Below, in pieces: positions 54,096 through 55,737 of a stretch of 64,000 nucleotides of DNA. Where the stretch lies: contig NZ_CP116304.1 in assembly GCF_028010285.1 (NCBI RefSeq), positions 4,480,501 through 4,544,500 of the forward strand. The letters are read 5' to 3'. Below the pieces are notes generated by a model, which made no database searches, was not told the DNA's origin, and worked only from the letters and a program-made list of their open reading frames with translations. The DNA comes from Pseudomonas sp. Q1-7 (lineage in GTDB: Bacteria > Pseudomonadota > Gammaproteobacteria > Pseudomonadales > Pseudomonadaceae). The position numbers and the translations under genes are program-made. Each line of letters begins with the position of its first letter. Position 1 is the first letter of the stretch.

Positions 54096-54226
54096 AAAAA
54101 AAGGGGCGGGGGTTACCCGCCCACTCTTTTGTCCCTATTCCCTGTAGTCCTTGCTCATCATCCTGATGAATCGCATCCGGCGATGTCCTGGTCGATATCC
54201 TTATCAACCTGCGTACATCCTGTACG
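54096..54226 (-). ncRNA. rsmZ: Small regulatory RNA RsmZ
   Basis: About 131 nt, minus strand, between fdxA and rpoS, which is the rsmZ position in Pseudomonas. It begins CGTACAGG like the P. aeruginosa RNA I recall. Eight GGA triplets, several in hairpin loops (GCGTAC-AGGAT-GTACGC-type stem at the 5' end; GATA-AGGA-TATC; CATC-AGGA-TGATG), are the binding sites for RsmA/CsrA dimers that the RNA sequesters. It ends in the hairpin GGGCGGG-TAACC-CCCGCCC plus T7. Promoter: TAACAT at 54240-54235 and TTGCAC at 54262-54257 with 16-nt spacing. A perfect GacA box lies 184 nt upstream. Exact 5' end is inferred. Confidence 0.9.
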
Positions 54227-54234
54227 CAAGAGTG

Positions 54235-54401: not shown

Positions 54402-54419
54402 TGTAAGCAATCACTTACA
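54402..54419. promoter_or_regulatory. GacA upstream activating sequence
   Basis: Perfect TGTAAG-CAATCA-CTTACA dyad, identical to the TGTAAG-N6-CTTACA consensus bound by phosphorylated GacA. Its centre is about 184 nt before the rsmZ 5' end, the distance known for rsmZ promoters. An additional TGTAAG half-site lies nearer the promoter (plus strand around 54332-54338). Confidence 0.9.
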
Positions 54420-54502: not shown

Positions 54503-54717
54503 AAAAGGCCCGGCCAAAGCCGTAATGCTGTTCACATAAGAAGTAACGGGACTCGATCAGTCCCCTCGCCCCTTTGGGGAGAGGGTTAGGGAGAGGGGGG
54601 AAACGACTGTTTCGCAGGGATTTCAACCCTCTCTCCCAGCCCCTCTCCCATAAATGGGAGAGGGGAGCGAGTCATGCGCGCTTAAGTGAACAGCATTACG
54701 GCCAAAGCCGGGCCTTT
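54503..54717 (-). terminator. rpoS terminator hairpin, split by an inserted element
   Basis: Removing 54520-54701 and one copy of CCAAAG restores AAAGGCCCGG-CCAAAG-CCGGGCCTTT, a perfect 10-bp hairpin with 6-nt loop and T run, placed just after rpoS. The insertion sits exactly in the loop. The outer arms can still pair, with the element's own terminal repeats extending the stem. Confidence 0.75.
54520..54701. mobile_element. MITE-like element, 182 bp, in the rpoS terminator loop
   Basis: Terminal inverted repeats of 16 bp, CCGTAATGCTGTTCAC (54520-54535) and GTGAACAGCATTACGG (54686-54701), perfect. The 6-bp CCAAAG occurs immediately outside both ends (54514-54519 and 54702-54707), as for a target duplication. 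The interior is palindrome-rich with CCCTCTCCC-type tracts, including a perfect 11-bp hairpin CCCCTCTCCCA-TAAA-TGGGAGAGGGG at 54640-54665. No open frame of note. Non-autonomous mobile element or miniature repeat is inferred from structure. Confidence 0.75.
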
Positions 54718-54732: not shown

Positions 54733-55737
54733 TTACTGGAACAATGCGTCGCTGGACAGGCCGTTCTTCTCCAGGATTTCCCGAAGACGCTTCAGCGCTT
54801 CGACCTGAATCTGCCGCACGCGCTCGCGAGTCAGGCCGATCTCCTGGCCCACCTCCTCGAGGGTACAGCTTTCATGCCCCCGCAGACCGAAGCGACGCAC
54901 AACCACTTCGCGCTGCTTGTCAGTCAGCTCCGACAGCCACTGGTCGATACTCTGCGAGAGGTCATCATCCTGCAGCAGTTCACAGGGGTCGGTGGGACGC
55001 TCATCGGTCAGGGTATCCAGCAGCGTCTTGTCGGAGTCCGGACCGAGGGACACATCCACCGACGTCACCCGCTCATTAAGACCAAGCATGCGCTTGACCT
55101 CGTCGACGGGCTTTTCCAGCAGATTGGCGATTTCCTCCGGCGAAGGCTCATGATCCAGCTTGTGGGTCAGCTCACGGGCCGCCCGCAGGTAGACGTTGAG
55201 TTCCTTCACCACATGGATCGGCAACCGGATGGTCCGGGTCTGGTTCATGATGGCCCGTTCAATGGTCTGACGGATCCACCAGGTGGCGTAGGTAGAGAAG
55301 CGGAACCCCCGTTCGGGATCGAACTTCTCCACCGCACGGATCAACCCCAGGTTGCCCTCCTCGATCAGGTCGAGCAAGGACAGACCGCGATTGACATAGC
55401 GTCGCGCGATCTTCACCACGAGGCGAAGGTTGCTTTCAATCATGCGCTTGCGCCCGGCAGGATCTCCGCGTTGCGCCAAGCGCGCGAAGTGCACTTCTTC
55501 TTCCGGGGTAAGCAGGGGGGAAAAGCCGATTTCGTTGAGGTACAGCTGAGTCGCGTCGAGCGCGCGGGTGTAGTCGATGTACTTGTGTTGCTTGGGTGAG
55601 GTTGAATGCCGGGATTTCGCGGTGGGCAGAGGCGCGTCGTTCTCCTCGCTCAACGCATCATCCAAAATGACGCCTGGCTCCAGGAGGAGCAGTTCGTCAT
55701 CGACGTCAAACTCCGGCGCTTCTTTATTGAGTGCCAT
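54733..55737 (-). CDS. rpoS: RNA polymerase sigma factor RpoS
   Basis: 334 residues, sigma-70 group 2. Region 1.2 [23 protein letters not shown], region 2.4 [27 protein letters not shown] split as usual, region 3 and region 4.2 helix-turn-helix ([20 protein letters not shown]). Length and ending FQ match Pseudomonas RpoS. Master regulator of stationary phase and stress. Located downstream of nlpD, whose coding sequence usually contains the main rpoS promoter. Its terminator is interrupted by the element above. Confidence 0.97.

Follow-up and report, generated by a model that had tools for sequence, protein, structure and literature searches.

A MITE at the tip of the rpoS terminator in Pseudomonas sp. 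Q1-7 and the likely selection of intrinsic terminators by an IS4-subgroup transposase

An inserted element in the rpoS terminator

In a 64,000-nucleotide stretch of the Pseudomonas sp. Q1-7 genome (contig NZ_CP116304.1, positions 4,480,501 to 4,544,500; hereinafter, the window, in the coordinates of which all features are given), a minus-strand open reading frame for a protein of 334 amino acids (54733..55737), which we take to be rpoS given its sequence and the gene order mutS-fdxA-rpoS, is followed by a terminator that is split into two halves. The left arm of this terminator outside the duplication described below, AAAAGGCC, is located at 54503..54510, and its complement becomes the U tract of the rpoS transcript; the right arm, GGCCTTT, which was delineated from the sequence and the predicted fold, is located at 54711..54717. 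The two halves enclose an element with perfect 16-bp terminal inverted repeats, as a previous sequence-only reading of this DNA had claimed and as direct inspection of the window confirms. That reading assigned to the element a length of 182 bp and a 6-bp duplication, CCAAAG. Both values have to be revised: the element, TAATGC...GCATTA, spans 176 bp on the plus strand (54523..54698; TAATGCTGTTCAC...GTGAACAGCATTA), and it is bounded by an exact 12-bp direct repeat, CGGCCAAAGCCG, the left copy of which lies at 54511..54522 and the right copy at 54699..54710 (spacing 188) and which corresponds to the hairpin loop together with the flanking upper stem. Approximately 18-20 bp at each end of the element match a resident IS4-type element, and its length is insufficient for a transposase. 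The body contains a canonical G-quadruplex motif with 3-nt loops on the plus strand (GGGGAGAGGGTTAGGGAGAGGGGGG, 54576..54600) and a CCCTCTCCC hairpin (54628..54665) similar to hairpins that stand alone elsewhere in the genome.

When a single copy of the repeat is retained, the reconstructed empty site, AAAAGGCC-CGGCCAAAGCCG-GGCCTTT, is a hairpin with an 11-bp stem and the tetraloop CAAA. The insertion spans the tip of this hairpin, each cut falling 4 bp down the stem, and thus does not lie strictly inside the loop, where the earlier reading had placed it. The outermost G/C at the element ends, which is common to most of the copies described below, appears to be target sequence, because two copies (L066 and L142) differ in the outer bases and yet keep an exact longer duplication.

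The first known transcription unit past the rpoS terminator is the small RNA rsmZ (54096..54228, minus strand; RF00166, 113.1 bits, E = 3.3e-27), which sits between rpoS and fdxA on the same strand as rpoS. Upstream of rsmZ, at 54402-54419, there is a TGTAAG-N6-CTTACA palindrome that resembles a GacA upstream site.

We compared the corresponding place in the 17 other genomes of the genus, using the first-listed orthologous place in each (a second, weaker match in G016 was left out). All 17 contain an uninterrupted hairpin beside A/T-rich tracts just after rpoS, which is the contiguous structure that the sequence-only reading had expected of relatives without the element; for example, the place after rpoS at locus L176 reads AAAAAAGCCCGGCCAAAGCCGGGCTCCTTC, with an identical GGCCAAAGCC core. 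The element itself was detected by DNA search (E up to 1e-20) in only one of the 18 genus genomes, that of Q1-7. Given that the hairpin is uninterrupted in all 17 relatives, the rpoS element is an insertion.

The MITE family and its full-length IS4-type partner

Miniature inverted-repeat transposable elements (MITEs) are short, lack a transposase, carry the ends of a resident insertion sequence (IS) and are flanked by a target duplication. The genome search for the terminal repeats and the body that the earlier reading had called for yielded 18 MITE copies and 13 full-length IS copies, and the classification of the rpoS element as a member of a MITE family stands. The 18 copies, identified by DNA search and alignment, are 145-179 bp long and up to 99% identical; 17 have both ends, with 13 exact duplications and four with one mismatch, and the eighteenth (L017) is decayed and has no duplication. 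Thus, the elements are short, have no transposase gene, share terminal inverted repeats with an autonomous element, duplicate their target and occur in several copies. The terminal repeat pattern, with at most two mismatches allowed, has 63 matches in the genome compared with two for a reversed control. Of the 18 copies, 12 carry a G3+N1-7 motif on this strand, and 17 carry one on the opposite strand. All Rfam matches over the MITE were far below the gathering scores. Among 62 matching plasmid records, none holds 80% of the MITE, and in the 10 of these that were listed, the matches extend over no more than 61% of its length. Elsewhere in the Q1-7 genome (L023, L026, L029 and L263-L267), there are CCCTCTCCC hairpin repeats that lack the MITE ends. 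Because this type of body also occurs without IS ends, the MITE looks like a pair of IS ends that took up another intergenic repeat.

The 13 full-length IS copies, each 1,422 bp between TAATG ends identical to those of the MITE, differ from one of them, L072, by 0-16 substitutions, and 12 of the 13 (the exception being L069) are flanked by exact duplications of 10-14 bp. The L072 transposase is a 444-aa product of a single open reading frame that contains the Nterm_IS4 (PF13006) and DDE_Tnp_1 (PF01609) domains, scores 270 bits, over the cut-off, against the NCBIfam IS4-family model NF033592, is 37% identical to InsG of Escherichia coli IS4 in a pairwise comparison and shows the YREK signature Y(2)R(3)E(6)K as YRERWEIELGFRNIK (read by eye in this copy). 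For the IS4 subgroup, the 2008 survey of the IS4 family lists -AATR ends, a length of 1400-1650 bp and direct repeats of 10-13 bp (PMC2266710); the Q1-7 element has all these values, apart from one 14-bp duplication that exceeds the listed range. By its ends, size and duplications, the element can be assigned to the IS4 family, subgroup IS4. It resembles E. coli IS4 in transposase domains, YREK signature, size (about 1.4 kb), -AATR ends and 10-14 bp duplications but has only 37% protein identity to it and is stricter with respect to terminators in the sampled sites. Among named elements, copies annotated as ISAeme15 have approximately 63% protein identity to the Q1-7 transposase. DNA related to the Q1-7 IS was found in 27 of the 398 family genomes examined, Q1-7 included, in a survey that scored at most two places per genome. 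Named species with such DNA include P. indica and P. jinjuensis.

Directly before the transposase start codon, the IS contains a hairpin of 16 pairs with a T run after it (1572-1607 of L072), and the same arrangement precedes insG in E. coli IS4 (L164, minus strand). By analogy with IS10 and IS50, in which transposase production from read-through is blocked, this hairpin would prevent transcripts that run in from the invaded gene from yielding transposase, a property that fits an element living at gene ends. We found no sigma-70 promoter for the transposase gene of the Q1-7 IS.

Insertion into probable intrinsic terminators

To score insertion sites uniformly, we used a fixed terminator test that requires a stem of at least 6 pairs, at least 4 of them G-C, centred within 2 bp of the centre of the duplication, as well as four T or A in a row in the flank. 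Only 64 of 63,691 window positions (0.10%) pass this test, compared with 27 of the 29 duplicated copies in the Q1-7 genome (15 of 17 MITE and 12 of 12 IS copies), so that the proposed targeting of hairpins is well supported. The two MITE failures, L006 and L013, are terminator-like by eye, with an interrupted T run or an imperfect stem. In 26 of 30 copies, the stop codon of a heuristically predicted open reading frame is no more than 45 bp away from the element, which identifies these sites as gene ends; by sequence, the targets are GC-rich hairpins with a T run just past a stop codon, as expected of intrinsic terminators. Perfect terminators of the form AAAAGCCC-N7-14-GGGCTTTT occur 26 times in the genome, of which 10 are occupied and 16 empty, and the reversed-pattern control gave none. 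The IS copy L069 stands between two unmatched half-terminators without a matching duplication, and six IS copies from other genomes (L077, L079, L139, L140, L144 and L146) likewise lie between unmatched halves without a duplication, as would be expected if IS copies at different terminators had recombined. Because the shared ends, duplication size and target choice agree, the MITE was likely moved in trans by the resident 1,422-bp IS.

The same preference extends beyond Q1-7. For the IS in other Pseudomonadaceae, seven of eight rows, or six of seven distinct sites (L076 and L136 being the same), pass the terminator test. A class-level protein search with the Q1-7 transposase returned its own genome only. 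From a phylum-level protein search in which at most four places were scored per genome, we obtained distant IS4-type elements with 37-64% protein identity; 12 of their 13 sites, in four genomes, pass (13 of 15 loci were counted, leaving out L250, which lacks reliable ends, and L252, which lacks a duplication). Across these two sets, L138 and L257 fail the test but are terminator-like by eye, again with an interrupted T run or an imperfect stem. The hairpin arms of these distant members differ in sequence yet are complementary (GGG/CC, GCTC/GAGC, CCA/TGG, CGC/GCG) and follow the same layout. Partial IS ends were left out of the terminator counts; among them, there is no clear terminator half at the right end common to L087, L088, L090, L102, L147 and L148, or at the ends L092, L149, L152, L153 and L155.

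For E. coli IS4, we sampled 16 loci out of 5,360 places, namely K-12 and 15 loci hand-picked from a spread of 60 records, and counted 10 sites after excluding L186 and L194, which have no exact duplication, and four repeated duplications. Seven of these 10 sites pass the test, or six of nine by chromosomal place (L187 and L191 are both at bamD); the remaining three have no hairpin, and two of them lie inside genes, but AAA and TTT near the cuts are kept. At L194 (tdk-adhE), IS4 is flanked by the hairpin tip in inverted rather than direct orientation, CCCCAGAAGGGG / CCCCTTCTGGGG. In a sample of eight plasmid copies, five have a duplication (L269, L270 and L274, without one, were left out); three of the five (L272, L275 and L276) are in clear terminators, L271 is weakly so and L273 is not. 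Hairpins are therefore not strictly needed in the relatives, given these three of 10 and two of five exceptions. As a post hoc control, we examined eight loci of six other elements matching NF033592, hand-picked from a 30-locus model search in Gammaproteobacteria, and none of the eight passes; the remaining 22 loci comprise 15 without ends, two of the Q1-7 IS and five artefacts or implausible cases (L222, L227, L228, L229 and L235). One locus of this comparison set, L239, holds an element of 1,559 bp whose 13-bp duplication, GGGTTGCAAACCC, is a perfect palindrome; it fails only for lack of an A/T run and is possibly a relative with another palindrome preference. The sequences compared here suggest that the choice of terminators is a habit of the IS4 branch found in Q1-7 and of the distant IS4-type elements, and is less strict in E. 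coli IS4.

That the long structure after rpoS is an ancestral regulatory hairpin, with no insertion involved, has practically no chance of being correct: the whole 246-nt region does fold as one hairpin, but the short terminators at that place in all 17 other genus genomes refute this idea, and 17 further related copies stand at other places, 16 of them with a duplication of their own. Random insertion followed by purifying selection, under which insertions survive only at harmless sites, terminators being among these because the palindrome can form again, would account for the location of 26 of 30 copies just after a stop codon and for the pairing that the MITE keeps between its flanks. We nevertheless judge this scenario very improbable, considering that terminator tips represent only 0.10% of the window positions, other intergenic DNA presumably being far more common, and that none of the 29 duplicated copies in Q1-7 is clearly outside a terminator. 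Moreover, the 1.4-kb IS, which is unable to re-form a compact hairpin, makes the same choice in 12 of 12 cases, most of the cut positions agree to about 1 bp, and the other NF033592 elements score zero of eight. We hold with considerable confidence the reading under which the insertion at the rpoS hairpin tip is a MITE, likely moved in trans by the IS, whose IS4-subgroup transposase likely selects intrinsic terminators as targets.

Target geometry and folding of the filled terminator

The target duplications of the 17 MITE and 12 IS copies in Q1-7 are 10-14 bp long, with a mode of 12, and consist of the loop and the upper stem of the hairpin. When the element ends are set at TAATG, 3 bp separate the A tract from the cut in 24 of 33 MITE and 17 of 24 IS measured half-sites, and 4 bp separate the cut from the loop in 23 of 34 MITE and 11 of 24 IS half-sites (mostly 3-4 bp). 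With these ends, the half-site distances lean towards anchoring of the cut by the A tract over anchoring by the loop; with the ends placed one base further out, the variances of the two distances are about equal (0.51 and 0.47, respectively). Two-sided A/T tracts accompany 22 of 27 targets (those called by the hairpin rule among the 29; L006 and L015 are not) compared with 17 of 37 terminator-like hairpins (Fisher p = 0.005) in a rough background that contains weak hairpins, the internal hairpin of the IS and at least one site counted twice. An earlier hairpin rule, which lost nine of the 29 targets with stems running through the A tracts, gave 14 of 20 versus 13 of 35 (p = 0.026). We propose that the IS4 transposase makes staggered cuts, each approximately 3 bp away from one of two symmetrically placed A/T tracts some 16-21 bp apart, a layout typical of bidirectional terminators. 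Because the cuts keep this distance from an A/T pair so arranged, the transposase probably recognises a two-sided A-tract/GC-stem palindrome in duplex DNA and not the loop or a hairpin extruded from the duplex.

The earlier reading also held that the rpoS RNA could still fold with the element in place, and the minimum free energy (MFE) structure, in which both the outer and the inner stems are kept, agrees; the MFE of the filled terminator region is -136.5 kcal/mol, compared with -79.1 (sd 5.1) for shuffled sequences (z = -11.3), although an MFE structure is not equivalent to the co-transcriptional folding of a 200-nt hairpin. The fold originally envisaged (a 10-bp stem, a 6x6 internal loop and a 16-bp stem) was too pessimistic: the duplicated target is itself palindromic, and the MFE structure therefore has an outer stem of 13 bp and an inner stem of 18 bp with a 2x2 internal loop between them. 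Across the 17 two-ended copies folded on both strands, pairing between the 45-nt flanks is kept in 34 of 34 folds, with 13-35 pairs, compared with none of two folds for the decayed copy L017. Given that the target, the duplication and the element are palindromes about the same centre, the MITE-bearing rpoS transcript would form an extended hairpin with the same U tract beneath it. On the basis of these models, termination of rpoS and the protection of rsmZ from read-through are predicted to be kept, which matters because rsmZ is the first known unit to follow on that strand.

The alternative to duplex recognition is that the transposase reads secondary structure, either a cruciform extruded by the terminator or a hairpin of single-stranded DNA, with the cuts placed at a constant distance from the loop. 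In most sites, the cuts do lie symmetrically around the loop, 3-4 bp from it, which is compatible with this mechanism, as are the arms of the distant members that differ in sequence and yet are complementary. Nevertheless, we find it rather unlikely, given that the three hairpin-less sites of E. coli IS4 keep AAA and TTT near the cuts, that a loop reader would not need the two-sided A/T tracts that are over-represented in targets (against the rough background), and that in L062, L070 and L074, with duplications of 13-14 bp, at least one A/T tract is still 3 bp from the cut; these observations argue for recognition of the A-tract/GC-stem palindrome. A similarly doubtful possibility concerns the consequences of insertion: the element could harm rpoS termination and increase read-through into rsmZ, in which case the copies would be young and awaiting purge. 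The spread of the MITE does look recent, because copies are up to 99% identical and only one of the 18 genus genomes has it, and rsmZ follows immediately after rpoS on the same strand, but the retention of flank pairing in all 34 MFE folds points instead to the maintenance of termination.

Relation to known mobile elements

The 2008 survey also reports variable-length duplications and a "spectacular" arm specificity of some IS4-subgroup members, and its main text contains no word beginning with "terminator" (PMC2266710). Insertion of an IS4-family member into REP palindromes was described in 2006, and REP-targeting elements (ISRm22 of the IS4 family, IS1397, IS621, ISPpu9 and others) likewise land in short extragenic palindromes (PMC1525189). 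The REP-targeting elements, however, use one repeated sequence, whereas the targets described here are many different terminator-like hairpins with a common architecture: arms and loops differ between the sites, and the common trait is the A-tract/GC-palindrome/T-tract layout. In the descriptions of bacterial MITEs consulted, terminators are a property of the element or are sought inside it (PMC10969869, PMC6382973). The Q1-7 MITE resembles intergenic bacterial MITEs such as RUP, the Correia-type elements and MITEAba12 in its small size, lack of a transposase, resident-IS ends and target duplication, but in Q1-7 it is the terminator that serves as the target, and the element joins it at the tip.

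A single insertion of E. coli IS4 in the pheS,T attenuator, which is terminator-like, was reportedly described in 1984 and, similarly to the sites analysed here, represents an IS4-type insertion in a terminator-like structure. To our knowledge, there is no general rule for IS4 insertion in terminators, and we found no publication in the open-licence part of PMC that names terminators as the target of the IS4 subgroup, although older reports may exist. Thus, the IS4 family, palindrome-targeting IS and arm specificity within the IS4 subgroup are known, and the use of terminators as a target rule, together with a MITE that extends them, is new as far as we searched.

We lean, with some reserve, towards the broader view that the IS4 subgroup is a transposon clade specialised on terminators, one that reads the bidirectional layout, cuts across the hairpin tip and thereby secures, whatever the host, nearly neutral positions next to transcribed genes, with its MITEs growing terminators into long palindromic, G-quadruplex-bearing 3' ends. 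If this is the case, the common layout of terminators is a simple answer to the need of a transposon for harmless sites; the "spectacular" arm specificity of some IS4-subgroup members is explained and landing sites become predictable; and one can test whether it is structure or sequence that a DDE transposase reads. At the rpoS locus, the insertion concerns the boundary between two global regulators, rpoS and rsmZ.

The Q1-7 genome contains a second small element, probably older, at two loci, L262 (G000:C1, about 4596350) and L268. Its ends, of the TAATGCCAGTCAGATAAG type, are similar to those of E. coli IS4 and surround a CCCTCTCCC-type body; L262 lies between AGAGCCC and GGGCTT.
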